64,000 nt of DNA from Melioribacteraceae bacterium. GTDB taxonomy: Bacteria > Bacteroidota > Ignavibacteria > Ignavibacteriales > Melioribacteraceae. A program made the translations under genes and the position numbers. Positions 49,996 to 64,000 of the stretch are shown one piece after another. Where the stretch lies: contig JAIPBD010000004.1 in NCBI GenBank assembly GCA_021739765.1, forward strand, positions 292,521 through 356,520. Direction: 5' to 3'. The notes beneath the pieces were generated by a model. It was given only the letters and a program-made list of their open reading frames with translations, did not search any database and had not been told where the DNA came from. The first letter of the stretch is position 1, and each line of letters starts with the position of its first letter.

Positions 49996-52900
49996 TTATT
50001 TGATCAAAATCATCTTTTTTATCTCTACAAAATCATTTACTCTCAGCTTATAAAGATAAATTCCACTCGGCAAATCTAAGGCATCAAATTTTACTTGATA
50101 ATTCCCTATCTCTTTCACTTCATTCACCAATTGAGAAATTTTCTGTCCGAGCATATCATAAACATCAAGAATCACCATACTTCTTACCGGGATCGCATAA
50201 TTAATTGTTGTAACCGGATTGAAAGGATTTGGATAATTCTGAGATAATTTAAACTCATTGGGAAGATTATTATTCTCCGCTCCAACTTGAGTAACCTTTG
50301 CAACATCAATATAATTTAAACTAAAAAGCCACCCGTTTTTGTCAGTTTCGGAATCAAACTCAAAACGCATTATATGAACGCCCGGTTCAAGAGTTACAGG
50401 GGGTATATCAATTGGTTTCCAAAACTGCCAACCACCCGTACTGTTGACTTTTTTAAATCCGCTAACATCAACATTGTCGATAAAAAGATTAAATCCGCCC
50501 ATTCCCGGTATTGTTGCGACGTATGGCGTAAACTTGTAATCTCCAGTTTCATTTACTTGAAAAGTATATTCAATCCATTCTCCAGCAACAATCCAATAAA
50601 CATCAAAAGTTTGATCGTTCGCGCCTTCAAGATCAACTCCTTCATCCGGGCGAAAAGCCAAACCGATATTATTGGCCTCTGTATCGTGGTATGCGACTCC
50701 TTCACCGCCTTTATCATAATGTTCGGCTTCAATTTTAGCCGGAATTACAACCGGAGTTCCGGAAAACGGAGTTCCGTTCCCAAGAACGGTAATAGTAACA
50801 CTATCTTTAGATTCAAACGAAAGCGCATTTTTTACACTAAGTACAACATTGTACGATCCTACTTCTGTAAATACATAGTTTGTATCGGCAGAAGTTGATT
50901 GATGTCCATCGTCAAAATCCCATAAAAAAGTCAGTGGGGAGTTATTTCTGTCGAAACTTTTGCTTGCCGAGAACTCAACTGAAAGTGGTGATTTACCGGA
51001 TGTTTTATTTGATAGCAGCAGAGCTACAGGAGCATCCGGATTTTCTGTGGAAGTACTTTTTGAAAGCAATTCCTTCCCCGGAACCAACATTTCAAATCCG
51101 TCGGAGAATGTAACTTTTCTTTCGGTTGAGGAAGCATTATACGCAACGTAGGTTAAGTTATCCTCAGCATCTCTAAAAACGGCATAAGTTGTTATATCCG
51201 CAAAAATTGTAGTTTCAAATTGACCCATTTTTTTTAGATTATACAGCCAATGCAAGGTATGTGCACGGGATTCGCCATCAAACGGTTCATAATCAATATT
51301 TGCGTAATAATGCGAAATGGCAAGATTGGGATCAGCAAGCGCCAAATATTCCCATAATATATCCTGCCAAACTTTCGGTTGACCGTTTCTCTCATTTACA
51401 ATTTCATTATAATTTTTGATAACATATTCCGGATTCCTTCCTAAATAAAGCGAACCGCTTGTGATCGGGAGAATATTAATGCCATGAATAAATTCCGGTT
51501 CAGCCCCAAACCAAGTTGAATGAACACCCTTGCCTCCCCACACCATTCCAATTGCCACATGCGGGTAATCCGCCGGAAATACAGCATTATCAATATCAAA
51601 CCAATATTGTTCCACCGCAGTTGTTTCTGTTGCGTGAAGGAAAACACCCAAGTCTCGAATTTCTTTTTGATCGGTAGCTTCGCCCCATAATATGACTGCA
51701 GACGCAAAATTCATCGATTCTGAACTTGATTCTTGATTATTTCCTTCGGCAAAATCGCCATGCCCTGCAGCCCAAGAGTGACCCGCGTAGGAATCGTGAG
51801 TTCTCAAAAATGGAAAGCGTTCATCGGATCGATCCCAATTGTTCGCGTCTTTAATTAGCAAATTAACCATTCCACCCCAATTCGATTGAGATGCCCAAGT
51901 GCTATCGTATCTCGCAATCGTTGCGGCGCTCATTACAGCGTAACTGGCGTGGAAATGATGATCATTGATCTGATTATCCGCTCCATAACCGGATGGATAA
52001 CCCGTCAGAACATCCCATTTATCATTGTAATAATATTCTTGTTCCCCTCCGGCGGTGAACCAATCTTCGAGACGGTTTTTCAATTCTGAAATAAAATGAT
52101 CACGCTCCGTTATAGCGCCAATTTGATCGGCGATATAAATAAGATTTGAAAACCTCGCCATTAATTTCCCGTTTTCGTAAGTCGGACCGACCGGTAAATT
52201 CTCAGCAGCCGCATCTTGAATAAATCCCAATAGGTCTTGTTTATTATAATCTCCGTTATCCGGTAGTGCTGGCAATATTCCGTTAAACTTTAATGTTGTA
52301 GTGAATTCACTTCCTTCGTAAAGTTTCATTTCACCGCGTGGCGATTTGTAATTAAAACTTGTTAAGGGCTGATCAACATTTAACCATTGATGGCGATATA
52401 ACGCCGTCATCGTTTCGTTAATATTGGATGAATTACTATCCATAAGTGTGGTTTCGTACTTATATGTAGTAATCAATTCCGATGTCGATTCATCAAAATC
52501 CCATTCGACAATGCTATTTGTAACAAAAGCGTAAGCATGTTTTCTGAATAATTCGAGAGTGGCGGGATTTGCATCAGGAAGTAGCGCAACCGAAAGATAA
52601 TTTTTGCCGTTTAGAGATGATCGCAAAGTCGTTGTGCCTGACCATCCGGAACCGGTCGGGGCAAATATTCCATAATGTTTACCTTCTATTGTAACTCCTA
52701 GCACCTCATTTTGATTAAACCAAACCGTAGGAGTACTTTTTGTCTTGATTACGGCATCTCCTCCATTAATTTTAAAAAATACATACGGAAGACCATGACC
52801 AAGAGTGGCTTCCATTGATTTATTCCCCGATTCCCACAAAGCAGTTACAGTCCAATCTCCGTAATGGTGTGTATTCGTTTTTGCCGCCGTTAATCCGTCA

Positions 52901-53313
52901 ACACCAACAGTCAACTGATTAGAATATGGGTACAAAAAATCATTTGCCGCGAAAATATGAGAGGTTGTGTAACCGATTTCTAATCCTCCGGCGACGGCTT
53001 TCATATTCATTGGATGGGCATATAAAATATTCGAAAATGGCGAAGCAAAAAACGGATATATCAAACTACTCCAAAAATCATTTGATTGAATCGGTTGATT
53101 GAAACCTGAAGATATTTTAGGATTTACATTAGTTTCGGTAAAATCTTGAGGACCAATTTCACCCGAAGGTAATTTTGTGGTGTAACTTCCGCTTCCGACC
53201 GCAATTGTTTGTGCGATTGCGGTTGAGTGCTGAAATAGTAGAGCAGCAAATAATAAGGGCAATAGAATTGAAAATTTAGCTTTTTTGATCGTAGTTTGGA
53301 AAAAGTCTGTCAT
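49996..53313 (-). CDS. Secreted GH81 endo-beta-1,3-glucanase with PKD, CBM6-like and T9SS sorting domains
   Basis: Extracellular enzyme of 1105 residues predicted to cleave beta-1,3-glucan (laminarin, curdlan). Signal peptide about 1-35. The GH81 domain spans about 40-710: QSNDFWSSLIYPF near the start, GADNQINDHHFHASYAV and NNQESSSESMNF (about 523), which holds the acidic residues expected for catalysis. Then a PKD domain (about 761-846, SPLTFLWDFDDG), a CBM6-like carbohydrate module (about 851-1008, KIEAEHYDKGGEG...), and a type IX sorting domain (1013-1105) with LSQNYPNPFNP. The surface-anchored layout fits a scavenger of algal or fungal glucan. Promoter lies in the 324 bases before 53638. 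Confidence 0.9.
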   Translation of the reverse strand: MTDFFQTTIKKAKFSILLPLLFAALLFQHSTAIAQTIAVGSGSYTTKLPSGEIGPQDFTETNVNPKISSGFNQPIQSNDFWSSLIYPFFASPFSNILYAHPMNMKAVAGGLEIGYTTSHIFAANDFLYPYSNQLTVGVDGLTAAKTNTHHYGDWTVTALWESGNKSMEATLGHGLPYVFFKINGGDAVIKTKSTPTVWFNQNEVLGVTIEGKHYGIFAPTGSGWSGTTTLRSSLNGKNYLSVALLPDANPATLELFRKHAYAFVTNSIVEWDFDESTSELITTYKYETTLMDSNSSNINETMTALYRHQWLNVDQPLTSFNYKSPRGEMKLYEGSEFTTTLKFNGILPALPDNGDYNKQDLLGFIQDAAAENLPVGPTYENGKLMARFSNLIYIADQIGAITERDHFISELKNRLEDWFTAGGEQEYYYNDKWDVLTGYPSGYGADNQINDHHFHASYAVMSAATIARYDSTWASQSNWGGMVNLLIKDANNWDRSDERFPFLRTHDSYAGHSWAAGHGDFAEGNNQESSSESMNFASAVILWGEATDQKEIRDLGVFLHATETTAVEQYWFDIDNAVFPADYPHVAIGMVWGGKGVHSTWFGAEPEFIHGINILPITSGSLYLGRNPEYVIKNYNEIVNERNGQPKVWQDILWEYLALADPNLAISHYYANIDYEPFDGESRAHTLHWLYNLKKMGQFETTIFADITTYAVFRDAEDNLTYVAYNASSTERKVTFSDGFEMLVPGKELLSKSTSTENPDAPVALLLSNKTSGKSPLSVEFSASKSFDRNNSPLTFLWDFDDGHQSTSADTNYVFTEVGSYNVVLSVKNALSFESKDSVTITVLGNGTPFSGTPVVIPAKIEAEHYDKGGEGVAYHDTEANNIGLAFRPDEGVDLEGANDQTFDVYWIVAGEWIEYTFQVNETGDYKFTPYVATIPGMGGFNLFIDNVDVSGFKKVNSTGGWQFWKPIDIPPVTLEPGVHIMRFEFDSETDKNGWLFSLNYIDVAKVTQVGAENNNLPNEFKLSQNYPNPFNPVTTINYAIPVRSMVILDVYDMLGQKISQLVNEVKEIGNYQVKFDALDLPSGIYLYKLRVNDFVEIKKMILIK

Positions 53314-53637
53314 TGTGTGCCTTCTTTTGAGTCAGATAATTATTAAGATGTTTGCGAAAATGGGAGTTCCAATATAATATTTCTCGGATAATGGAATTTC
53401 AAAAAGTAACCAAATGTATCCGGTGTGCAGCTCGGAGAAATGACTTTTTAATCCGTTATGAATGATTCTGATATCACTCTCCGTAAAGAACGGTCTTATT
53501 TGACAAATTATTTAGTGTAATTAGTTCAGAGCGCTTTTCGTCGTATAATTAGCAGTCTTAAACGATTATTATTTTTCTACTCGGCTATCATCACGATTAA
53601 TATTTGTTATATTGACCGCTTTTTAATTACGGACTTA
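53314..53637. other. Divergent intergenic region between GH81 and MFS genes
   Basis: 324 bases with no coding capacity seen on either strand. It must hold the promoters of the two divergent genes. No strong palindromic operator or riboswitch fold was recognised by eye. Confidence 0.5.
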
Positions 53638-54951
53638 ATGCCTAAGAAAAACCTCATAACAACGTTCCCATTTTATTATGGATATGTAATCCTTGTAGCC
53701 GGAACAATCGGCGCTGTAATGAGCGCGCCCGGCCAAACTGTCGGGATTTCCGTGTTCACTGATTTTTTAATTTCAGATCTGGGAATTTCCCGCGAGAAGC
53801 TCAGTCTCGCATATTTAATCGGAACACTTTCAAGTTCATTTATACTTACCTATGCAGGAAAGTTTTTTGATAACCACGGGGCGAGAATTACTTCGGTTGC
53901 TTCAGGATTCCTTCTCGGATTGTCACTTTTCTATATGTCGAAAGTTGATAAAATCATCTTTTTTTTCGTTTCTATTTTCGGTGAAAATGCGAATGAAAAT
54001 ATTGTATTTATTCTGCTGATATTGGGGATCTGGTCTGTACGATTTTTCGGGCAGGGCGTTTTAACGATGTCTACAAAAAACATGGTGATGAAATGGTTTG
54101 ATAAAAGGCGAGGCATGGCAAGCGCATTTATGGGGATAGCAATCTCATTTGGATTTTCTTACTCACCCCAAGTTTTCGATTGGCTAATTTCGCTCTACGG
54201 TTGGCAGGGTGCTTGGCAGATTATCGCTTTGGTAGTCGGAGTTCTCTTTGCGGCTTTTGCTTTGATAACTTACAGAGACAATCCGTTTGAATTCGGATTA
54301 AAACCTGACGGTAAAATTCTAACATCCAAAAAGAAGAATGAATCGGACTTCAAACCAATCAAAGATTACACGCTAAAACAAGCCCGTTCAACATACAGTT
54401 TTTGGATATTTAATCTCACCCTCGCTTTTCACGGTTTGTACATAACGGCTTTAACATTCCACATCGTTGATGTTTTTAAAGGCGCCGGTATGGATAGAAA
54501 TGAAGCTATTATGATTTTCCTTCCTTCGGCTGTTATCGCGCTGGTTTTTCAAATTTTTAGTGGAATAATTGCAGATTATATCAACATGAAATATCTGTTA
54601 ATGATTGAATTGGCCGGATTAATTATAGCGAGTTCCGGTCTATGGTTTTTGAGTCCGGGATTACCATTCTATTTAATAATAATCGGAAATGGAATCGGAA
54701 GCGGATTGTTTGGTGTCGTTTCGAGTGTTACATGGCCGAGATATTTTGGGATTACTCATCTTGGGGCAATTTCAGGATTTAACATGAGTTGGATTGTCGC
54801 CGGAAGCGCGGTCGGACCTTATCTTTTCAGTTTATTGTTCAAAATCGATCAGAATTATCAAATCGCCGGATTAGTTTGTTTGATCTGTTGCCTAATACTT
54901 TTCATTTTATCATTTAAAGCAGATAACAAAAATTTGATGGTTTCAAAGTAG
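53638..54951 (+). CDS. MFS transporter, monocarboxylate/oxalate-formate type
   Basis: Twelve-helix major facilitator of 437 residues. The start PFYYGYVILVAGTIGAVMSAPGQTVGISVF is typical of the OFA/MCT-like clade, and loop 4-5 has NMVMKWFDKRRGMASAFMGIAISFGFSYSPQVF. Helix 11 ends with ITHLGAISGFNMSWIVAGSAVGPYLFS. It probably moves an organic acid; the substrate is unknown. Divergent from the GH81 gene and convergent with the BKACE gene. Confidence 0.86.
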   Translation: MPKKNLITTFPFYYGYVILVAGTIGAVMSAPGQTVGISVFTDFLISDLGISREKLSLAYLIGTLSSSFILTYAGKFFDNHGARITSVASGFLLGLSLFYMSKVDKIIFFFVSIFGENANENIVFILLILGIWSVRFFGQGVLTMSTKNMVMKWFDKRRGMASAFMGIAISFGFSYSPQVFDWLISLYGWQGAWQIIALVVGVLFAAFALITYRDNPFEFGLKPDGKILTSKKKNESDFKPIKDYTLKQARSTYSFWIFNLTLAFHGLYITALTFHIVDVFKGAGMDRNEAIMIFLPSAVIALVFQIFSGIIADYINMKYLLMIELAGLIIASSGLWFLSPGLPFYLIIIGNGIGSGLFGVVSSVTWPRYFGITHLGAISGFNMSWIVAGSAVGPYLFSLLFKIDQNYQIAGLVCLICCLILFILSFKADNKNLMVSK

Positions 54952-54994
54952 AGTTGGCTTAATTTTTTGTAAACGAATTTAATTTTCCTAAAAC

Positions 54995-55714
54995 TCAAAG
55001 ACCCAATATTTGTTTGGCTTTATTTATAATTTGAAGATTGCTCCCGGCCGTTTCCCCATTTTGCAAATACAACGTGTCTTCCATACCGATTCGTGTATCA
55101 TATCCCTTATGTTTTGCTTCCTCAATAATATCCCAAACAACGGTATTAAATCCGTGTAGTAACCTAGGTAAGAAAATATTGTTCGAATTTAGCACTTCCT
55201 CAATCTCATTGACTACAGTTATTGCGGAATTATACTCTTCAGGTTCTGGTTCGATTAACACTCTACAACAGTTCTGAACAAGATTGCTATGAACAAATTT
55301 TTCAGCTGCCCTTTTTTCATTTAAGCCGGCTTCGATTAATATCCCCTTTTCCACAAGCAGATTTGATATTTCTATCGCATCGTCTTCAATCATATTTACG
55401 GAAACAAAATCGGGCTTAAGCTTCCAATTTCGTATAAAACTCTTCCTTTTATTTAAATTAGGTTCAATCCATTCACCCGAACTTATGCCTATTTGGATTT
55501 TATCAGAAATAGTTTTAACGAGGGATACCAAATTAAAAACATCGTCCGGTTTCAAACTCTCCGCTCCATTCACGTCATAACAATGAATATGAAAAACATC
55601 GCACCCAATTTTATGCAATGCTCGAACCTCATTTTCAATTTCTTCCAGACTGTGGGGAATATTTTGATTTTCAGACTTTGATCTTGCGCCGTTAAGAGCT
55701 ACTTGTAATAACAT
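54995..55714 (-). CDS. BKACE family (3-keto-5-aminohexanoate cleavage-type) enzyme
   Basis: Zinc-dependent beta-keto acid cleavage enzyme of 239 residues. The start LLQVALNGARSKSE, the zinc site FHIHCYD and the later GFNTVVWDIIEEAKHKGYDTRIGMEDTLYLQNG are the family signatures; the last segment carries the conserved Glu-Asp pair. It is somewhat shorter than usual (about 270-300), consistent with a short subfamily. BKACE enzymes take a beta-keto acid and acetyl-CoA; the substrate is unknown. Confidence 0.82.
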   Translation of the reverse strand: MLLQVALNGARSKSENQNIPHSLEEIENEVRALHKIGCDVFHIHCYDVNGAESLKPDDVFNLVSLVKTISDKIQIGISSGEWIEPNLNKRKSFIRNWKLKPDFVSVNMIEDDAIEISNLLVEKGILIEAGLNEKRAAEKFVHSNLVQNCCRVLIEPEPEEYNSAITVVNEIEEVLNSNNIFLPRLLHGFNTVVWDIIEEAKHKGYDTRIGMEDTLYLQNGETAGSNLQIINKAKQILGL

Positions 55715-55747
55715 TCTTTCCTTTTGCGAGAAGAAATTTGAGAATAT

Positions 55748-56383
55748 TTAACTAATAATTATTCGTTGGAAAAGTGTGTAAACATATGGACGCAAATCAC
55801 CTTTTGGCATTTGATACATATAAGAAAATGAATTTAGTAATTTGAAATCTTCGCCCAAAAATCTATCTATCATTTTATCATCATAATTTTTAACGTCGAG
55901 ACCGCTGCATTTTTTGGCTCCTTCGAGAGAGAAAACAGCAATCAGAACAAATCCATTTTTCCGAACCAGTTTTTTTAACGCCGCTAAGTACCCTTTTTGC
56001 TGCTCCTCTGTAAGTAAAAAGTGCAAAACTGTCCGATCATGCCATAAATCAATACTGTTAAGTTTGGTTAGATTTTTTGGATTTGTAATATCATCAACAA
56101 TCCAGCGGACTTTTTCGGCTTCCTTTGATTCGAGTAATCCTTTTGCTCGATCCAGTGCTACCCTGCTTATATCAGACGCGATTATATCTGAATAAGATTT
56201 CCGGATCAGATGTTTGATTAAACTGCTTGCGCCCGAACCTACATCGAGAATCGTTGAGTTTTTATCAAGATTGCAGCTTTCTATCAAATCCAGAGATGGT
56301 TTGGGTGTTTCTTCGTACCAGCCAAGTTTGTTTAGATCATTTTTTGAATAAACCGAATCCCAATGATTTTTATAATCGATCAT
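55748..56383 (-). CDS. Class I SAM-dependent methyltransferase
   Basis: A 211-residue methyltransferase. The SAM-binding motif I is ILDVGSGASSLI (about 44-55), motif II IIASDISRVALDRA, and WIVDDITNPKNL then DLWHDRTVLHFLL mark the remaining Rossmann-fold loops. The start DYKNHWDSVYSKNDLNKLGWYE is typical of a small group of unassigned methyltransferases, some annotated as thiopurine or tellurite type. Its start abuts the degenerate attC-like site upstream (56.40 kb). Confidence 0.86.
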   Translation of the reverse strand: MIDYKNHWDSVYSKNDLNKLGWYEETPKPSLDLIESCNLDKNSTILDVGSGASSLIKHLIRKSYSDIIASDISRVALDRAKGLLESKEAEKVRWIVDDITNPKNLTKLNSIDLWHDRTVLHFLLTEEQQKGYLAALKKLVRKNGFVLIAVFSLEGAKKCSGLDVKNYDDKMIDRFLGEDFKLLNSFSYMYQMPKGDLRPYVYTLFQRIIIS

Positions 56384-56399
56384 ACTTCACACTATTTTT

Positions 56400-56560
56400 A
56401 TTTAATAATGTTGCACCCCATCCGGCTACTCCAAAAAGCAGTGCCGAACTTAAACAACTAATCTTATTTATTATAAATTATTTCTTAGTACAACTTACTT
56501 TTAATCACGACAAATATTGTAAACGCAGTTTTACAAATAAATAAACGTTGCTACGAAAAT
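56400..56560 (-). other. Degenerate attC-like site
   Basis: The sequence AATGTTGCACCCC (56407) and the following GTGCCGAACTTAAACAACT (56441-56459) match the same place in the clearer site at 57.9 kb (GATGTTGAAAATAACC and ATGCCGAACATATCAACAACT). The outer arm toward the hydrolase gene has lost clear R'' and L'' motifs. If it is a true attC it would bound a hydrolase cassette on the left. Evidence is only the partial similarity. Confidence 0.3.
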
Positions 56561-56619
56561 CAGTTTGTCCCACAATCTCTTTGCAGGTCATTATTTGTTG
56601 ATCAGCGATTCATGTTTAA

Positions 56620-57570
56620 CTATTCTATTTCAGCATTCACTTTTTCTTTTTGAATATTCTCATAATCATTCAAAGCAAGCTGAATGCTTGTGATAATTGT
56701 TTCCGGATCGTCATTGGGAATATAATGACCCGAATTTGATAAATAAATAAGCTTTCCATATTTCAGCGGGTCTAATAATGCTGTCCAGCGTTTCATCTTC
56801 AAATTGTTATTTATTCTGAATAATTTCTTCTTATCAAAGATGGTTTCTCCTCTATCATCACCCTCATTCGAATACCCCCCGGCCAAAATAAAATGAACCG
56901 GAACATCGGGCAAAGCAGTGCTGTCGCAATCTTTAAATTCATTTTTGGTTAATTGACCGGAGATTTTCACTTCTTCAACATAATAATTCGGCATTTCAGC
57001 AAACAATTTTTCTTTGAAATCATCATAAGGCTTCGCGAACATCGAATCAATTTGATGCTGTGTTAATCCGATTTCTAAATATGGAAGAGCGCCATATCCT
57101 TTCTTTTTTGTGAAATCTATAGGATCAACAAAAATCAATCCGGCAATTTCTTCCGGGTATTTCGATGCAAAACTTCTGATATACGCTCCGCCAAATGAGT
57201 GGCCGACTAATAAATATGGCGGATTAAGCCCCTTCTCCAAAAGCATTGATTTTAAGTTACCATTAATATGTTCCATGGTCGGAGGCAGGTTGTCATTTTC
57301 AGATTCTCCAATTCTTGGTCTGTTATATGAAAAAACAACCGAAGTGTTGGAAACTTCATTAATTATGTTTTTCCAATAATCATATTTTGTTGCCATCCCA
57401 TTTTCGAATACAATTACAGGTTTACCGGGTTGATTGTTTTCCTGCCCGGATGTAAAAACCTCGATTTTACTTCCGTTCAATGTCATAAATTCTTTTTGTC
57501 CAAAACCATAATCACTTAATCCTATAATTAATAGAATTACAGATATTACTACTTTCATTGATTTGCTCAT
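56620..57570 (-). CDS. Exported alpha/beta hydrolase
   Basis: Serine hydrolase of 316 residues with an N-terminal hydrophobic signal (about 5-24, ending GFGQ). The nucleophile elbow is LVGHSFGGAY, with the catalytic serine near 125; the acid is probably in the following LIFVDPIDF region or later, and the histidine is in NSGHYIPNDDPE. A GTG at 57579 is also possible, but the ATG at 57570 has AAGGAG 8 nt upstream. The substrate is unknown. It may be the outermost cassette gene of the array, since an attC-like site lies just upstream. Confidence 0.85.
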   Translation of the reverse strand: MSKSMKVVISVILLIIGLSDYGFGQKEFMTLNGSKIEVFTSGQENNQPGKPVIVFENGMATKYDYWKNIINEVSNTSVVFSYNRPRIGESENDNLPPTMEHINGNLKSMLLEKGLNPPYLLVGHSFGGAYIRSFASKYPEEIAGLIFVDPIDFTKKKGYGALPYLEIGLTQHQIDSMFAKPYDDFKEKLFAEMPNYYVEEVKISGQLTKNEFKDCDSTALPDVPVHFILAGGYSNEGDDRGETIFDKKKLFRINNNLKMKRWTALLDPLKYGKLIYLSNSGHYIPNDDPETIITSIQLALNDYENIQKEKVNAEIE

Positions 57571-57877
57571 GAACCACACTCCTTAGATGATATTATTAGC
57601 TTAAATACTGAACTGTATCCCCACAATTCTACACCGGCTAGAAATATAACTGATTCCCTGTGAGCCAAATTTTGTCCCGATCACGATTGAATCAAAATAG
57701 GATCCACTCTAATCGTAATTGTATTGGTTCAGCGAGAACTGGCAACTGATAATAATAATATATCTTTACTTAGATCATATAAACTAAATGGCTCATTTTG
57801 ACTTAATGTGCTCAAAGAATCAGTTAATTGATTTATGGTTGAGAAAAACATAAACCTTCCTCAAAATATTCTTAGCT
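57571..57877. other. Non-coding region upstream of the hydrolase gene
   Basis: About 300 AT-rich bases without an open frame of note or a clear motif. It presumably carries the hydrolase promoter. In the cassette model this is the leader part of the hydrolase cassette. Confidence 0.5.
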
Positions 57878-58064
57878 ACATAACGATGTTGAAAATAACC
57901 AGCGCCCCAAAACAAGCATGCCGAACATATCAACAACTTTTATTTGCTAAAAATATTTTTTAACAGAATAACTTTGAACAAGAACCTTTACACGTAAGAA
58001 CAAAGCCAATAATTACACAAATGTCGAATGCGAAGACGGCGTCAGCTTAATTGGCTGGTTATAA
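57878..58064 (-). other. attC-like recombination site of the sigma-factor cassette
   Basis: Read on the minus strand: R'' TTATAAC (58064-58058), a 9-base spacer, L'' AAGCTGA with a GCC continuation, an AT-rich middle, L' GGCGCTGGTTATT, and R' GTTATGT (57884-57878). R''/spacer/L'' sizes match the aadA-type attC (7, 9, 7). L'' and L' pair apart from one unpaired A, the extrahelical base expected of attC. Length about 187 bases. R'' is complementary to the start of the sigma-factor cassette at 59019. This is one of the most canonical sites in the array. Confidence 0.72.
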
Positions 58065-58084
58065 TCGTTTTTAGAAAGCTGGTT

Positions 58085-58357
58085 TTATTTTCCCGATTTA
58101 AAATATTCAATGATTTTTCTTATAGCTGAGTTAATTTTTCTTATATCATTAGTGATGGAATCTTTTTCAAATTGACTTGTGAAAGTTTTAATTGTTTTTA
58201 TATCTCTTTTTATAGAGTCTTTTTCGAATTGGCTGACCTTACTTTTTAATTCAACAATTAGGCTTGACATTTGAATATTGATCTTCTCTGTTTGTGAAGA
58301 ATTACTCCATACATCCTTTAGCTCTTTCCATATATCGTTTAATTCTTGATCCAGCAT
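58085..58357 (-). CDS. Small helical protein encoded after the sigma factor
   Basis: A 90-residue, highly charged protein predicted to be almost all helix. It has a 19-residue internal repeat: SQFEKDSIKRDIKTIK at 42 and SQFEKDSITNDIRKIN at 61, suggesting a duplicated amphipathic or coiled-coil unit. No membrane segment is present, so it is not a typical anti-sigma factor with an anchor, but similar small genes often follow sigma-70 family genes in Bacteroidota. A cytoplasmic regulator of the sigma factor is a reasonable guess. It starts 18 bases after the sigma-factor stop. Confidence 0.65.
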   Translation of the reverse strand: MLDQELNDIWKELKDVWSNSSQTEKINIQMSSLIVELKSKVSQFEKDSIKRDIKTIKTFTSQFEKDSITNDIRKINSAIRKIIEYFKSGK

Positions 58358-58375
58358 ATTATCTACCTCAATAAT

Positions 58376-58897
58376 TTATTTTAAATTATAAGTTATACAA
58401 TTTAATAACGTCTTCCTTATCCGTTTCATTTTAACAGCTATATGATTCTCTGTCAAATCCGTAATTGCAGCAATTTCCTTATAAGGCAGCTCCTCCAAAT
58501 AAAGGATAATAATAGATTTATCTGTTTCATTCAGAGTAGAGATACAAGCTTGAAGGGCTTGATATTTTTCTTTCTGAATTTTATCCATTGTATTTTCTGA
58601 TAGAGCAAAATGTATCGATTCTAATCTAACTGTATTGTTGTTACTCTTTTCAAGTTTCATTTTTGAACTATAACAAACGTTTAGTGAAATTTTATAAATC
58701 CACGTGCTTATGCTAGATTTACCCTTGAAAGTAGATAATGATCTCCAAACTTGAATTACCACTTCTTGGAAAAGGTCTTGAGGCTCTATCGGAGTAACTG
58801 CATAGATCTTGCATAGTCTGTAAATTTTATCTTTATTGTCTTCAATTATCTGTATAAAACTTTGCTCGAGTTGATTTTGCATATGATTATTTATCAT
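58376..58897 (-). CDS. Sigma-70 family (ECF-type) RNA polymerase sigma factor
   Basis: A 173-residue sigma factor with region 2 (about 25-90: QDLFQEVVIQVWRSLSTFKGKSSISTWIYKISLNVCYS) and region 4 (about 118-168, with the helix-turn-helix ELPYKEIAAITDLTENHIAVKMKRIRK). Regions 1 and 3 are absent, as in ECF factors. Two ATG codons (58897 and 58882) are possible: the AGGAG lies directly against the first and 15 bases before the second, so the start is uncertain. It lies within a unit with attC-like ends at 58.06 and 59.01 kb. The regulon is unknown. Confidence 0.88.
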   Translation of the reverse strand: MINNHMQNQLEQSFIQIIEDNKDKIYRLCKIYAVTPIEPQDLFQEVVIQVWRSLSTFKGKSSISTWIYKISLNVCYSSKMKLEKSNNNTVRLESIHFALSENTMDKIQKEKYQALQACISTLNETDKSIIILYLEELPYKEIAAITDLTENHIAVKMKRIRKTLLNCITYNLK

Positions 58898-59107
58898 CTC
58901 CTATTACTAATGTATTAGTAACAAGAATTTCTGAAATATGACAAGAAATATTTATTTTTTATTTAAAATTAACACAACAACAAATATGCAACTAAATCAA
59001 TTTTTATTGAGCTTATAACTACTATATCAGCCGATTTGCTTCCGGGATAATGGAGAAGCAATTGCCGACGTTATTTCTTCTTTTATGATCTGTTTTATCC
59101 TTCCATT

Positions 59108-59597
59108 GGTGTCATGGTCATACCAGCTATTTAAATAATCGTAACCATGACACAAACAGAGCACCAAACTGCTTCTGTGTTCAATCGAGAATTAGTGTTA
59201 GGGTATCAAATTCTAAGATGGATTCTAAGACCGCGCCAACATGGTAATGATGCAAAATTCAAGTTCCAGCGGAACGACATGTTTATAGAAACCATCAGAA
59301 ACGAGCGAAAAAAGAGTTCCAGCGGAACGGCATGTGACCAACGAAAACATTTTCAACAATTTGAAATGCCACATACCACTTCTACGAAGCTCAATTCCTA
59401 ATCCTAATAGCTATTCTATAAACATGTCGTGGCTCTGCCACTTTTTGATTTTGTGCAATCCGTGGGTGTCATGGTCATAATAGCTATCGACATAATCGTA
59501 ACCTTGACACAAACAGAGCACCCAAACTGCTTCAGAGTTCAATCGAGAATTAGTGTCAAGGTATCAAATTCAAAGATGAATTCTAAGACCGTGACAA
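59108..59597 (+). repeat. Paired 131-bp direct repeats in site A
   Basis: Copies at 59108-59238 and 59465-59597 both start GGTGTCATGGTCATA and continue through AATCGTAACC.TGACAC, GAGCACC.AAACTGCTTC, TTCAATCGAGAATTAGTGT and GATTCTAAGACCG. Each contains the stem pair TGTCATGGT/ACC(A/T)TGACA. Site C has the same pair (62357-62488 and 62715-62847); site B has only one copy. Confidence 0.85.
59263..59441. repeat. REPIN-like hairpin pair
   Basis: Two hairpins GTTCCAGCGGAAC (59263-59275, 59316-59328) and an inverted one, GTGGCTCTGCCAC (59429-59441). The first is followed by CGACATGTTTATAGAA (59275-59290), and a perfect 16-base inverse, TTCTATAAACATGTCG (59414-59429), precedes the last. Hairpin plus GACATGTTTATAG is a recurring repeat type in Bacteroidota genomes; two in inverted orientation is the REPIN layout. 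A near-identical copy is in site C (62513-62691). Confidence 0.7.
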
Positions 59598-59776
59598 CCT
59601 TGTAAAGAACTTTTAGCCACTTTGAGGCTTGTCCGCTGTTTTGTCGGGCGGGCATCCTTATGCCTCTTTATCAATATTTATTCTCAACAACTTTGTATTG
59701 ACTTTAATCGGAATAACTGGTTAGCTGCTTCAATTTTATCTTGAAATGGAACTTTTTCTTTAATAAATTGTAGTGC

Positions 59777-59792
59777 AATTGTAATTACAATT
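59777..59792. promoter_or_regulatory. Palindromic operator of the toxin-antitoxin operon
   Basis: A perfect 16-base palindrome AATTGTAATTACAATT ends 15 bases before the antitoxin ATG. Ribbon-helix-helix antitoxins of the RelB/DinJ family bind such palindromes and repress their own operon; this assignment is by position and family, not tested. Confidence 0.65.
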
Positions 59793-59807
59793 ATTCGAGA
59801 ATCCAAA

Positions 59808-60068
59808 ATGAATAAAACAGCAACTATACAAACAAGAATTGATCCTAAAGTAAAGAACAGCGCTCAAAGAGTCCTCAATAAACTTAATATCTCTATGTCT
59901 GAAGCAATCTCAATTTTCCTAACTCAAGTTTCTTTGAACAAAGGAATCCCTTTTGAAATAAGAGTTCCCAACAAAACGACGGAGGAAACGCTTAGGAAAT
60001 CTGAAAAAGGTGAAGAGCTTCATGAAGTCTCTGATATTAAACAACTTTTCAAGGAACTTGATAATTGA
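59808..60068 (+). CDS. RelB/DinJ-type antitoxin
   Basis: An 86-residue antitoxin. The ribbon-helix-helix part is TIQTRIDPKVKNSAQRVLNKLNISMSEAISIFLTQV (about 4-42), as in DinJ, and the C-terminus (GEELHEVSDIKQLFKELDN) would wrap the toxin. It overlaps the toxin by 4 bases (TTGA). The operator palindrome is just upstream. The operon runs on the plus strand, opposite to its neighbours in the cassette array, which is usual for cassettes carrying their own promoter. Confidence 0.9.
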   Translation: MNKTATIQTRIDPKVKNSAQRVLNKLNISMSEAISIFLTQVSLNKGIPFEIRVPNKTTEETLRKSEKGEELHEVSDIKQLFKELDN

Positions 60069-60331
60069 GATTAGTTTATTCTTCGCAATTCAAAAAAGAT
60101 TACAAGAAAATTAAACGACAGAATAGAGATATTGCACAACTCGAAACTGTCGTTATAACTTTACTGAATAAAGAACCATTACCACCTAAATATAAAGACC
60201 ATAAACTCTCTGGAAGATGGAATTCATTTAGAGATTGTCATATAGAACCGGATTGGGTTCTCATTTATCAAATTACTAATGATGCCTTAATTTTAGAAAG
60301 AACAGGCTCACATTCAGAACTTTTCAAGTAA
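60065..60331 (+). CDS. YafQ/RelE family mRNA-interferase toxin
   Basis: Ribosome-dependent mRNA endonuclease of 88 residues. All five E. coli YafQ active-site positions are present, each shifted by four: H46 (KDHK), H59 (CHIE), D63 and W64 (EPDW), H83 (GSHSE), matching H50, H63, D67, W68 and H87. The start is TTG, overlapping the antitoxin stop. Such type II modules are common in integron cassettes, where they stabilise the array. It should be active by its residues; this is not proof. Confidence 0.92.
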   Translation: MRLVYSSQFKKDYKKIKRQNRDIAQLETVVITLLNKEPLPPKYKDHKLSGRWNSFRDCHIEPDWVLIYQITNDALILERTGSHSELFK

Positions 60332-60342
60332 TTCACAGACTT

Positions 60343-60704
60343 AGCAGCTAACTACTATAAAAGCCGATTTGCTTCCGGGATAATGGAGAAGCAATTGCCG
60401 ACGTTATTTCTTCTTTTATGATCTGTTTTATCCTTCCATTGGTGTCATGGTCATACCAGCTATTCAAATAATCGTAACCATGACATAAACAGAGTCCCCA
60501 AACTGCTTCAGAGTTCAATCGAGAATTAGTGTCAGGGTATCAAATTCTAAGATGGATTCTAAGACCGCGATAGCCTTGTAAAGAACTATTAGACACTTTG
60601 AGGCTTGTCTGCCGTTTTGTTGCGCGTGCATCCTTATGCCTCTTTATCAATATTTATTCTCAACAACTTTGTGTTGACTTTAATCGGAATAACTTGCTAT
60701 AAGC
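60343..60704 (-). other. attC-like site B (VOC/AraC cassette), short form
   Basis: A 362-base relative of sites A and C, at the same relative position between units. R' side on the plus strand begins AGCAGCTAAC (60343-60352), then a spacer and AAGCCGATTTGCTTC; the other end has AATCGG and then GCTATAAGC (60696-60704). It holds only one copy of the 131-base repeat and no REPIN: the junction of repeat 1 (CTAAGACCGCG) with the downstream side of repeat 2 (CCTTGTAAAGAAC) shows it arose by recombination between the two repeats, or that A and C arose by the reverse duplication. Confidence 0.6.
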
Positions 60705-60785
60705 GATTAGCATCATCTGACTTAATGGCCTCGGATTATGTAATTGCTTGGCTAAGCACTAAACTTTGCAAACACACAATTAAAT

Positions 60786-60805
60786 GAAAATCCTCGAGGA
60801 TTTTC
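60786..60805. repeat. Perfect 20-base palindrome
   Basis: GAAAATCCTC directly abuts its reverse complement GAGGATTTTC with no loop. It lies 54 bases past the VOC gene stop, on its 3' side, and could form a hairpin or serve as a terminator or protein-binding site. A tail of T bases is weak, so the role is open. Confidence 0.5.
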
Positions 60806-60858
60806 GGAAGTAAACGAGAACGACGAATTACTGATAGCCATTGTTGGCAAGGATGTTT

Positions 60859-61254
60859 TTATAATTCCTCTACTATTTGAATATTATTCCCACAGGTGTC
60901 GTTAAATACTGCATACTTAACAGTTCCCATTATTGTTGGTTTTATACTAAACTCAACGTCAAGCTTTGTTAAACGTTCAGATTCGGCATCAACATTTTTA
61001 ACATCAAATTGTGTATATGGAATTCCCGCTTCCATCAATGCATCCTGATAAACTTTTGACGGCTCAAAGTGAATAGGAGCGGGTTCCAATAAAAGTTCCG
61101 GTCCGTCTTCAGCTTCTTTTGAAACAACCGTCAACCATCTGTTTCCTCCATCCAAAGGTGTGTCCTTCTTTTTAATGAAGCCAAGTTTTTCTGTATAAAA
61201 TTTCAATGCTTTTTCCTGGTCTCGTACCGGAATGCTGATTAGTGTCACTTTCAT
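60859..61254 (-). CDS. VOC family protein (glyoxalase/bleomycin-resistance fold)
   Basis: A 131-residue member of the vicinal oxygen chelate superfamily: start VTLISIPVRDQEKALKFYTEKLGF and the metal-binding end NTCGNNIQIVEEL. The ATG at 61254 has GAGGTG 6 nt upstream, so it is chosen over the GTG at 61263. It may bind or modify small molecules; substrate unknown. It is the last gene of the three-gene unit (AraC, VOC, VOC). Confidence 0.85.
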   Translation of the reverse strand: MKVTLISIPVRDQEKALKFYTEKLGFIKKKDTPLDGGNRWLTVVSKEAEDGPELLLEPAPIHFEPSKVYQDALMEAGIPYTQFDVKNVDAESERLTKLDVEFSIKPTIMGTVKYAVFNDTCGNNIQIVEEL

Positions 61255-61268
61255 TTTATTCACCTCAT

Positions 61269-61697
61269 TTATTCTGAAAGATTAAGTTGCCATGAAATGC
61301 CGTATTTGTCTTCACACCATCCGAATTTTTTACCAAAGCCGTAATCCCCTTCACCTTTGTAGTTGTCAAGAGGAACCATAATCTGCCCCCCATTTGAAGA
61401 AAGTTTTTCAAACAAAGTTTGTATCTCGTCTTCAGAGTAGCAGGAAACGAACAGGGATACTCCCGGTGTAAATGACCAAGCGTGATTATAATTACTTTCA
61501 GAAACCATATAATCAGTTCCATTTAACATAAATACTCCATATTTAATAAGTTCAGGCGTACCTCCTGCCTCTCCTTCAGAGTATTTTTTTATGATTTTAA
61601 TTTCGGAATTTGGGAAGATAGAAGTGTAGAAATTTATCGCTTCTTCAGCCTTTCCGCATTGAACACCTACAAATGTTAGAAATGTTGTTGTTTTCAT
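61269..61697 (-). CDS. VOC family protein, PhnB/3-demethylubiquinone-methyltransferase-like
   Basis: A 142-residue VOC protein of the PhnB-like type: start FLTFVGVQCGKAEEAINFYTSIFPNSEI, then MVSESNYNHAWSFTPGVSLFVSCYSEDEI and YGFGKKFGWCEDKYGISWQLNL at the end. Such proteins often lack the metal site and their role is uncertain. It is between the AraC-type regulator upstream and the second VOC gene downstream (14 bases). Confidence 0.87.
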   Translation of the reverse strand: MKTTTFLTFVGVQCGKAEEAINFYTSIFPNSEIKIIKKYSEGEAGGTPELIKYGVFMLNGTDYMVSESNYNHAWSFTPGVSLFVSCYSEDEIQTLFEKLSSNGGQIMVPLDNYKGEGDYGFGKKFGWCEDKYGISWQLNLSE

Positions 61698-61741
61698 TTT
61701 TATATCCTTTATTAAAATTCCAAAGTTCGTTCTTGGAAGGT

Positions 61742-62131
61742 TTATGTGCTTCTCGAAAGTTGCTCTTTTAAATATTCGCTTGGTGATTTACCCGTTTTGG
61801 TTTTAAATAGAGTGCTAAACGAACCTAAACTATCAAATCCAACATCAAAACAGGTTTCCGTGACCGACATTCCATTTTTTAGTTTTTCTTTTGATTTTAC
61901 AATTCGTTTGTCAATCAAGTATTGTCTGGGTGTTTGACCATAATATTTTTTGAACAAGCGCAACAAGTGATACTTGGAAATAAAGTGAATACGGGAAAGT
62001 AAGTCCAGATTTAATTTGGCATCATAATTATTTTCGATATAGTTTCGGATCCCGATTGCAGTATTAATTTGTCCTTTGTTTGAATAAACTATGCTGCAAA
62101 TTTTATTAAGTTCTTTTTCGTAAAATGTCAT
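61742..62131 (-). CDS. Short AraC-family transcriptional regulator
   Basis: A 129-residue protein consisting essentially of the DNA-binding domain, with two helix-turn-helix motifs (about 38-60, LDLLSRIHFISKYHLLRLFKKYYG; about 85-112, SVTETCFDVGFDSLGSFSTLFKTKTG) and the usual TPRQYLIDKRI and SPSEYLKEQ signatures. No sensing domain, so it resembles MarA/SoxS-type regulators. It probably controls the two adjacent VOC genes, 44 bases downstream. Confidence 0.88.
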   Translation of the reverse strand: MTFYEKELNKICSIVYSNKGQINTAIGIRNYIENNYDAKLNLDLLSRIHFISKYHLLRLFKKYYGQTPRQYLIDKRIVKSKEKLKNGMSVTETCFDVGFDSLGSFSTLFKTKTGKSPSEYLKEQLSRST

Positions 62132-62259
62132 TATTTTGAATTCTTAAGTTACTGCCAAAATATGTGAATGGATATTGTTCTTATGTGCCAAAATTAAACA
62201 CACAAAAACAATTCTTTATTTTAATATAATTGATACAAATAACTTATTCAAAAAAGAGA

Positions 62260-62982
62260 GCTTATAACTGCTATATAAGCCGATTTGCTTCTAGGATAAT
62301 GGAGAAGCAATTGCCGACGTTATTTCTTCTTTTATGATCTGTTTTATCCTTCCATTGGTGTCATGGTCATACCAGCTATTCAAATAATCGTAACCATGAC
62401 ACAAACAGAGCACCCAAACTGCTTCAGTGTTCAATCGAGAATTAGTGTCAGGGTATCAAATTCTAAGATGGATTCTAAGACCGCGCCAACAAGGTAATGA
62501 TGCAAAATTCAAGTTCCAGCGGAACGACATGTTTATAGAAACCATCAGAAACGAGCGAAAAAAGAGTTCCAGCGGAACGGCATGTGACCAACGCAAACAT
62601 TCTCAACAATTTGAAATGCCACATGCCGCTTCTACGAAGCTCAATTCCTAATCCTAATAGCTATTCTATAAACATGTCGTGGCTCTGCCACTTTTTGATT
62701 TTATGCAATCCGTGGGTGTCATGGTCATAATAGCTATCTACATAATCGTAACCTTGACACAAACAGAGCACCCAAACTGCTTCAGTGTTCAATCGAGAAA
62801 TAGTGTCACGGTATCAAATTCTAAGATGAATTCTAAGACCGTGACAGCCTTGTAAAGAACTATTAGACACTTTGAGGGCTTGTCTCCCGTTTTGTTGGGC
62901 ATGCTTCCTTATGCCTCTTTATCAATATTTATTTTCATCAACTTTGTGTTGACTTTAATCGGAATAACTGGTTAGGGTGTAA
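62260..62982 (-). other. Giant attC-like site C (SANT/membrane protein cassette)
   Basis: A 723-base element, nearly identical to site A. Minus strand: R'' TTACACCCTAAC (62982-62971), spacer, TCCGATT; the far end has L' AATCGGCTTA, 7-base spacer, R' GTTATAAGC (62268-62260). It contains both 131-base repeats and the REPIN-like insertion (62513-62691). R'' is perfectly complementary over 12 bases to the cassette start at 63675-63664. L' equals the CGGCTTA of well-known attC sites of aminoglycoside-resistance cassettes. Confidence 0.65.
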
Positions 62983-63375
62983 TTATTGAATTAATTTATC
63001 ATATGAATAATCAAGTAAAAAATAGTATGCTACAATCAACATCAGAATTTTTGACCAAAAGAAAAATATAGTACCCCAATTAAAATATCTTGGAGCAAGA
63101 AAATTTTCATCTTCTTTAACTTTTTTAAATTCTTTTAAACGATTATAGATTCCCCAAACTAGCGAGCCAGAAATATATTGTAGTAAATCTAGACCCAAGC
63201 TAATTATAATAAAGATGGCAGGAAGAACTAGTTCACTAGGTATTGATTGATTAGAAATACCAACCGTTTTAAATATCCAAATAATCGCAATTCCAGCAAA
63301 GTTTAACTGTCTAATTATATCACTTGTTTTTTGGGAATAATAATTATAATTCTCTCTTACATCTTTTAGTCTCAT
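62983..63375 (-). CDS. Small membrane protein of unknown function
   Basis: A 130-residue protein with about three to four predicted transmembrane segments (about 24-40, 48-75 and 97-123) and a basic N-terminus (MRLKDVRENYNYYSQKTSD). No family was recognised. It overlaps the SANT-like gene upstream by 4 bases, so the two are translationally coupled. It lies in the outermost complete cassette of the array. Confidence 0.7.
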   Translation of the reverse strand: MRLKDVRENYNYYSQKTSDIIRQLNFAGIAIIWIFKTVGISNQSIPSELVLPAIFIIISLGLDLLQYISGSLVWGIYNRLKEFKKVKEDENFLAPRYFNWGTIFFFWSKILMLIVAYYFLLDYSYDKLIQ

Positions 63376-63638
63376 CTTATTCGTGGTCCTCCGCTATTTG
63401 TTCCATCGTCCTTTCCTTTTTTATTATGCCTAGATCTGTTTGCATTCCAATCTTTACGAGTTTTTCCCATTTGTAACTCAATGTCTTCTTCACTTGCTTT
63501 TGATTTGATCGCCCTTATAGTTCTACCTAGTGCTCTACTAATAGTGAGCAATGAAATATTTTTTTTAGCAAGCTTTCTTAGGACTTCAACTTCTTCCTCA
63601 GTCCACGTTTTCCCCGAGTTATAAGATCTACGAGACAT
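63372..63638 (-). CDS. SANT/Myb-like DNA-binding protein
   Basis: An 88-residue protein with an N-terminal helix-turn-helix resembling the SANT/Myb or GcrA type (about 11-52: TWTEEEVEVLRKLAKKNISLLTISRALGRTIRAIKSKASEE). The rest is basic, low-complexity and probably disordered (RSRHNKKGKDDGTNSGGP). It would bind DNA as a small regulator. It precedes the coupled membrane protein gene and probably regulates the pair or an unlinked target. Confidence 0.72.
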   Translation of the reverse strand: MSRRSYNSGKTWTEEEVEVLRKLAKKNISLLTISRALGRTIRAIKSKASEEDIELQMGKTRKDWNANRSRHNKKGKDDGTNSGGPRIR

Positions 63639-63663
63639 AAATGACCCCTATTTTTTTGAAAAC

Positions 63664-63891
63664 TTACACCCTAACGGCGTTGCCCATAAGCCGCCCATAG
63701 ATACAACATTTTCTAGAACGACAACACGATTTAAAGCAAAAAATGCTTATATTTTTTCACAAGTATTTTTTGCCACAAAACTTTTTTAGTATGACAACCT
63801 TGAACTACAATTTATGTTAGAACGACAAACCCAATAACAATTTTCATACCCCAAGCAGAATGAAGCGGTCGGCTTGATGGGCTTGATATTT
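63664..63891 (-). other. attC-like site with canonical L''/L' pairing
   Basis: Minus strand: R'' AAATATC (63891-63885, one mismatch from the consensus), 9-base spacer, L'' AAGCCGA (63875-63869), a long AT-rich middle whose apex is a stem (63736-63748 with 63761-63773), L' CGGCTTA, 11-base spacer, R' GTTAGGGTGTAA (63675-63664). L'' pairs with L' except for an unpaired A (and one further base), exactly as in aadA-type attC sites, which also fixes the reading direction as minus. It is the clearest attC in the window. Confidence 0.78.
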
Positions 63892-63912
63892 CCAATAAGT
63901 AAATAAGAACTT

Positions 63913-63934
63913 ATGTTGTTTTTATCAACAACAT
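63913..63934 (+). promoter_or_regulatory. Hairpin upstream of the IS110 transposase
   Basis: Perfect 8-bp stem ATGTTGTT / AACAACAT with a 6-base loop, ending 17 bases before the transposase ATG and just 5 bases before its GGAGG (63940-63944). It may occlude the ribosome site or be part of the non-coding RNA that IS110 elements make from this end. Confidence 0.5.
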
Positions 63935-63950
63935 CAATTGGAGGCATCTC

Positions 63951-64000
63951 ATGTACTATACCGGTATTGATCTACACAAATTTACATCCTATCTGACCAC
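63951..64000 (+). CDS. IS110-family transposase, N-terminal fragment cut by the window end
   Basis: The first 16 codons (M-Y-Y-T-G-I-D-L-H-K-F-T-S-Y-L-T) match the start of IS110-family DEDD transposases, whose first catalytic aspartate lies in the G-I-D-x-H-K segment. The ATG is preceded by GGAGG 6 nt upstream. The gene runs off the right edge, so completeness cannot be judged. IS110-family elements, notably the IS1111-attC group, are known to target attC sites. Confidence 0.7.
   Translation, partial: MYYTGIDLHKFTSYLT

Follow-up and report, generated by a model that had tools for sequence, protein, structure and literature searches.

A probable integron cassette array with inner attC sites interrupted by IS110/IS1111-family ends in a Melioribacteraceae bacterium

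We analyzed a 64,000-nucleotide stretch of DNA (the window) that forms the final 64 kb of contig C13 of a Melioribacteraceae genome, and find that positions 57878 to 63891 very probably hold a chromosomal integron cassette array. As assembled it is a cluster of attC recombination sites lacking an integrase (CALIN), with three inner sites broken by the ends of insertion sequences (ISs) that target attC. An earlier note on the same DNA had proposed an integron-type cassette array and had called for a covariance search for attC sites. We ran this search with a model of our own, built from related genomes, and it found the two outer sites of the array (57878-58064 and 63669-63891); these matches indicate a real integron cassette array and uphold the proposal. 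The source genome comprises 4.54 Mb in 37 contigs (99.8% estimated completeness, 0.5% contamination), and its contig C13 stops at window base 64000.

To obtain training sites for the model, we scanned related genomes for complementary ends. A first scan near integron integrase (IntI) genes yielded one site in ten loci that we judged credible. A second scan yielded 35 matches, against 28 on reversed sequence: 18 were repeated and array-like and became the training set, three were same-contig duplicates (L117), two lay on the opposite strand of sites already used, and 12 were discarded as noise. The resulting model, R1, thus rests on 18 regular attC sites from six genomes of the family or order other than the genome under study, and some of these sites stand beside IntI genes or within a few kb of them. 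They are 172-226 nt long and share a common plan, with R'' and R' arms, an unpaired spacer, L'' and L' arms, and, on the L'' side, columns 16 and 23, which are mostly unpaired (column 23 faces a base in some sequences). Both-sided changes occur in 13 of 23 pairs of the training alignment, and 96.1% of the cells of alignment A1 pair, compared with 77% when shuffled and at most 43.5% when slid; as the training sites were picked by complementarity, these pairing counts are inflated.

R1 matches site D, at the left of the array, with 116 bits (E 5.4e-21) and site 0, at the right, with 93.3 bits (E 1.9e-16). The two stand 6 kb apart, and a CALIN calls for at least two sites within a few kb, judged here by our own model and not by that of IntegronFinder. 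Across the whole genome, where 150 of 3020 initial candidates were scored, R1 gave nine places at E <= 1, and sites at E <= 1e-6 occur in 66 of 77 genomes of the family, this one included; some family attC sites adjoin IntI genes or lie within a few kb of them. The L'' (AAGCCGA) and L' (CGGCTTA) arms described in the earlier note are real in site 0, whose arm energy is -18.0 kcal/mol, with none of 200 shuffles as low. Site D reaches -12.5 kcal/mol (7/200 shuffles as low). The 18 regular sites range from -16.5 to -24.8 kcal/mol, and 17 of them have at most 2/200 shuffles as low. Folding of whole sites was unremarkable for three window sites (z = -1.3, -1.2 and -0.6), and an Rfam search of window positions 50000-64000 gave nothing at E 1. 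Elsewhere, two 66-nt sites in the relative G275 (L103, 3547-3612 and 4349-4414) match the full attC model beside regular sites of 185-201 nt, so attC length varies threefold in one array. A 3' module shared by loci L045 and L046 was also considered as an intact attC, a role that folding does not support (z 0.8 and 0.5).

The second line of evidence is that each cassette matches its own end. The cassette boundaries drawn in the earlier note are right, and its four start/end matches are all present (Table 1): R'' is complementary to the start of its own cassette in 4/4 cases, once with a mismatch. Shuffling ends within the window gave p = 0.08 for core positions 4-7 (16/16 letters matching) and p = 0.21 for positions 8-12 (12/20). 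Since four cassettes are too few for a significant internal shuffle, we counted 37 cassettes between successive attC sites in 14 loci outside the window, 36 from relatives and one from contig C6 of the same genome. Sites were full-length R1 matches at E <= 0.001, with neighbors up to 4.5 kb apart. The count includes L171 and L174, whose records are labelled Labilibaculum and Lutibacter and belong to the same set of metagenome-assembled genomes as G203; it omits second copies of contigs (L108, L127, L165, L177, L193) and single sites (L124, L130, L136), and retains misfits such as L116 3915-7457, which spans an IS.

In these 37 cassettes, own start and own end agree in 98/111 letters at positions 5-7 and 122/185 at positions 8-12. 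Across a site, between array neighbors, agreement is 93/183 and 100/305, respectively. When ends were shuffled within arrays, positions 8-12 agreed in 85 letters on average, and 0/20000 shuffles reached 122. By position, 32, 31 and 28 cassettes agree at positions 8, 9 and 10, then 22 and 9 at positions 11 and 12. The picture was the same in an initial, partial count over ten loci (22 cassettes, 78/110 letters agreeing, within-array p = 0.001), from which several sites were missing and in which the cassette L101 14476-16608 spans an extra attC, lowering the match. The core of the attC match is 7 bases, and the cassette end match extends beyond it to ~10 bases. The earlier note had argued for cassettes from matches that differ from unit to unit, and this argument is sound: matching to the own end is general over the 37 cassettes taken together. 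It also bears on whether the locus is an integron at all. The inner spacers consist mostly of IS ends and dispersed repeats, as they would in an IS-driven island, or one driven by miniature inverted-repeat transposable elements (MITEs), whose repeats end like attC by chance. Such an island is hardly credible: two sites match a model from other genomes at E 1e-16 and 1e-21, and the cassette ends match their own starts as they do in IntI-bearing relatives, which already contradicts it.

At the right end of the window, an IS110/IS1111-family element cuts the outermost attC exactly between R'' and L''. At the junction (63885/63884) the attC remainder AAGCCCATCAAGCCGACCGC meets the IS end TTGGAAATATC, which replaces R'' of site 0; the uninterrupted counterpart in G113 reads CTAAC/AAGCCCATCAAGCCG. 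A reading frame, MYYTGIDLHKFTSYLTT, begins at 63951 and continues beyond the contig end. The same 11-base end TTGGAAATATC terminates an IS copy in G019, again at an attC (remainder 33.5 bits), and this copy contains a 352-aa frame that matches Transposase_20 (PF02371) and holds MYYSGIDQHKLFSVITT. By eye, the 8 bases AATAAGTA are common to the regions near both ends of this IS type.

A second IS type is marked by the 21-mer AGTTATTCCGRTTAAAGTCAA, which occurs 73 times in 67 stretches of the species-genome collection; named records there that have repeats in common with the genome studied here come from Ignavibacteria, Melioribacteraceae, Chlorobiota and others, which fits a relative of Ignavibacterium. 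Among Ignavibacteria, Chlorobiota, Bacteroidota and similar records, 30/31 occurrences of the 21-mer (28 distinct sequences) are preceded by AAC and then C or A; the corresponding count for Desulfoluna and Neomarinimicrobiota is 0/42, with a single base available upstream at one of the 42. In 9/67 stretches it adjoins a transposase whose relative in G203, a 366-aa frame, matches Transposase_20 (PF02371); two of the nine are the G203 assembly's own contigs and one, from Desulfoluna, is 41% identical. In G203 and BMS3Abin04 the element has TTTAAACATA as its far end, followed by an attC remainder. A transposase beside the 21-mer, together with this far end, identifies the 21-mer as an IS end. Copies standing between R'' and L''...L'R' were found in G203 and, for the window IS type, on contig C44 of G019; in BMS3Abin04 (L170), the three parts of such an arrangement (R'', transposase, and attC remainder on the far side) were read separately. 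In the copies read, the insertion point is fixed, with R''AAC on one side and the attC from L'' onward on the other.

By eye, no shared subterminal repeat was seen in the 21-mer type, and its longer non-coding region seems to lie upstream of the transposase. In L170 and L177 this upstream region contains a stretch like GTTATTCC.CGACTTTA that resembles the opposite IS end, a candidate guide-RNA segment. Desulfoluna has 39 occurrences of the 21-mer, spread over 39 loci (among L149-L212), mostly after CCGG and never after AAC. Nine aligned copies have ~200 nt in common, and a transposase match was found in one locus only (L149); these copies are possible short non-autonomous IS110-type elements.

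The three inner sites, A-C, each consist of R'', an IS end, dispersed palindromic repeats and an attC-like 3' end. Directly after R'' they begin with CAGTTATTCCGATTAAAGTCAAC or a variant, and the IS end stands without a transposase or a second IS end. In site A the IS end runs from 62970 and the attC-like 3' end, with L' TCGGCTTATATAG, lies at ~62344-62269. Sites A and C carry, at the same place, a 300-nt repeat with TTCCAGCGGAACGACATG palindromes (62414-62713 and 59164-59463), which is also present on contig C15 and in copies in L044. A repeat of ~147 nt (window 60434-60581) has two palindromes, GTCACGGT/ACCGTGAC and GTCATGGT/ACCATGAC, and further copies on C15, C33, C1, C18 and C6; scattered in the genome and present at some contig ends, it looks like a MITE.

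We infer that an integron integrase once moved these cassettes, presumably acting on the folded attC bottom strand as in known integrons, in an array with attC sites of the long type usual in the family (~190-225 nt). IS110/IS1111-family elements that insert exactly between R'' and L'' would later have invaded the array, among them the one seen at its right end, where the contig breaks. At the inner sites, one IS end is still found beside R''; the transposase, the second IS end and the native L'' have disappeared, and other repeats have come to lie between. Reduced in this way, the inner sites are probably inactive, judging from their sequence, and individual excision of cassettes 1-3 would then no longer be possible.

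It is far less probable that each of the five sites works as an attC, with the inner ones merely very long and the IS-derived stretch in a large extruded loop. Three observations would fit working sites: at every inner site R'' matches the start of the cassette to which it belongs, one and the same composite follows three different cassettes, and the L' ends resemble attC ends. However, with filters off R1 found nothing above 11.5 bits in 57500-64000 apart from the outer sites, so that sites A-C score at background. Their arms barely pair, at -7.5 kcal/mol each (13, 32 and 20 of 200 shuffles as low), compared with the 18 regular sites, and their L'' side is the IS end common to transposase-bearing copies. 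The earlier note had taken every site for a palindromic attC; this stands for the outer two and fails for the inner three, and unlike in a CALIN where every cassette is followed by its own attC, three of the sites here are at background.

Several observations weigh against an array broken by IS ends. The arms of site D pair more weakly than those of the regular sites, 13/200 shuffles are as low for one of the 18 regular sites, and both the high background of the training scan and the inflated pairing counts bear on the model. Only 17 codons of the window IS transposase lie within the contig, and the assembled genome contains no integrase. Finally, over 700 nt sites A and C share 96% identity though their R'' differ, which independent IS insertion does not explain; the same composite, including the 300-nt insert, stands behind cassettes with different R'', and IS invasion leaves this unaccounted for. 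It looks like a site was copied between cassettes, by recombination or otherwise. The first 11 bases, GTTATAAGCTC, are also common to cassettes 2 and 4, as if copying had extended from site A into the adjoining cassette.

A bolder and unlikely proposal is that attC-targeting IS110/IS1111 elements not only destroy but remodel attC sites in Ignavibacteria: once the transposase is lost, the IS end adjoining R'' would serve as the new arm of a chimeric attC, which further cassettes then carry. In CG2_30_36_16, CG18 and MAG_30, an IS end of ~100-115 nt is joined to an attC 3' half in which L', mostly CGGATAAC, stands opposite the IS sequence GTTATTCCG. Five of six such sites pair with the IS arm better than any of the 18 regular L' arms (6.5-9, compared with at most 5) and the sixth scores 4.5; by energy, one of the six clearly beats shuffles. 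These six sites are related and may represent one event, and three further IS-end sites (in G106 and G019) pair no better with the IS arm (3, 4 and 4). Under such remodelling, window sites A-C would be a degenerate case. Pairing of the IS end with L' in these inner sites was tried and rejected, with scores (6, 4 and 5) no better than those of six regular L'' arms paired with the same L', and energies at background.

The earlier note reported no integrase in the window, and none stands near the array as far as the assembly reaches. The IntI profile TIGR02249 gave no match over its cut-off in the 4.54 Mb of the genome, where the two best matches are frames of 297 and 299 aa that we read as XerC/D-like. 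The array is therefore a CALIN as assembled, and its activity is not attributable to an integrase. In the class, 53/295 genomes have an IntI match over the curated cut-off. Because the assembly breaks within the array, the integrase gene of a complete integron could lie in a gap, which we consider possible but doubtful. Many family members have IntI, and contigs C13, C15, C18 and C6 all end within or near array-type repeats or ISs, whereas a genome estimated to be nearly complete yields no match over the cut-off. Contig C6 starts with the reverse complement of ~105 IS-end bases, at another attC, and C18 terminates in the cassette end GTGCCTAAC followed by what we judge by eye to be the opposite IS end. 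IS copies at contig ends can account for the breaks of C13, C6 and C18, and the array probably runs on past them. To the left, no exact 7-12 base match to the start at 57884 was found within 12 kb, so the array seems to end at site D. In locus L101 of G113, the attC array has the orientation of IntI and lies past the 3' end of that gene; the classical integron layout is the reverse. A shared module upstream of the first cassette on contig C1 (L045 8604-8784) is a candidate attI only.

The features of the array are listed in Table 1. RelB/YafQ-type genes, as in cassette 3, are typical of chromosomal integron arrays. On contig C33 (L043 12740-13954), a cassette-like unit ended by the same IS end encodes a 404-aa protein that by eye resembles a restriction-type nuclease.

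Table 1. Features of the cassette array, from the contig end leftward (window positions).
Feature	Positions	Strand	Basis or annotation
IS110/IS1111-family element, left end and start	63885..64000	+	sequence; same ~105 bases on C6; G019 copy
attC site 0 (L''...L'R')	63669..63891	-	R1 match; arm energy
Cassette 1	62971..63675	-	start/end complementarity 12/12; Pfam
Cassette 1 gene, 88 aa	63372-63638		weak GcrA-like Pfam match, below cut-off
Cassette 1 gene, 130 aa	62983-63375		no Pfam match at E 0.01
Composite site A, 702 nt	62269..62970	-	repeats; IS-end alignment
Cassette 2	60696..62268	-	start/end complementarity 8/9; Pfam
Cassette 2 gene, AraC-type HTH	61742-62131		Pfam
Cassette 2 gene, PF06983/glyoxalase-fold	61269-61697		Pfam
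Cassette 2 gene, glyoxalase	60859-61263		Pfam
Composite site B, 343 nt	60353..60695	-	shorter, without 300-nt insert
Cassette 3	59720..60352		start/end complementarity 10/10; genes opposed to array direction
Cassette 3 gene, RelB antitoxin	59808-60068	+	Pfam PF04221
Cassette 3 gene, YafQ toxin	60065-60331	+	Pfam PF15738
Composite site C, 700 nt	59020..59719	-	identity to site A
Cassette 4	58058..59019	-	start/end complementarity 7/7; Pfam
Cassette 4 gene, sigma-70 family factor	58376-58897		Pfam
Cassette 4 gene, 90 aa	58085-58357		no Pfam match at E 0.01
attC site D, 187 nt	57878..58064	-	R1 match; arm energy

Like the integrase-less attC clusters defined by IntegronFinder, the locus has cassettes between sites that match an attC model and no integrase in the assembly. 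It differs from usual integrons and CALINs in that three of five sites are broken, and its less familiar traits are attC sites of ~190-225 nt and cassette ends matched over ~10 bases. Group IIC-attC introns also target attC. The IS elements resemble the IS1111-attC group (ISKpn4, ISPst6) in transposase superfamily and in insertion at a fixed place at one attC end; attC-targeting IS1111 members are already in print (PMC11187229). The same paper gives the IS1111 family subterminal inverted repeats of 11-13 bp and a longer non-coding region downstream of the transposase gene. Compared with the group as described there, the elements here are found in Ignavibacteria, many copies are reduced to a single end, and the G203 copy is non-coding on both sides of the transposase gene, with the longer region, by eye, seemingly upstream. 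The earlier note had considered cassette arrays in Ignavibacteria little described; they are not new in print, since the IntegronFinder 2.0 paper mentions complete integrons found earlier in Chlorobi and Ignavibacteriae (PMC9024848). We noticed neither 10-base cassette-end matching nor chimeric IS/attC sites in the literature looked through, in which no search was aimed at either.

Our data indicate that integron arrays with long attC sites are usual in this little-cultured family, and that a finder restricted to shorter attC sites may miss them; the default maximum attC size of IntegronFinder is 200 nt. The ~10-base match of a cassette end to its own start, and not to its neighbor, offers a testable hint: cassette ends may be shaped by pairing within the free circle rather than within the array. 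Invasion by IS elements that target attC would provide natural experiments on how arrays lose mobility.

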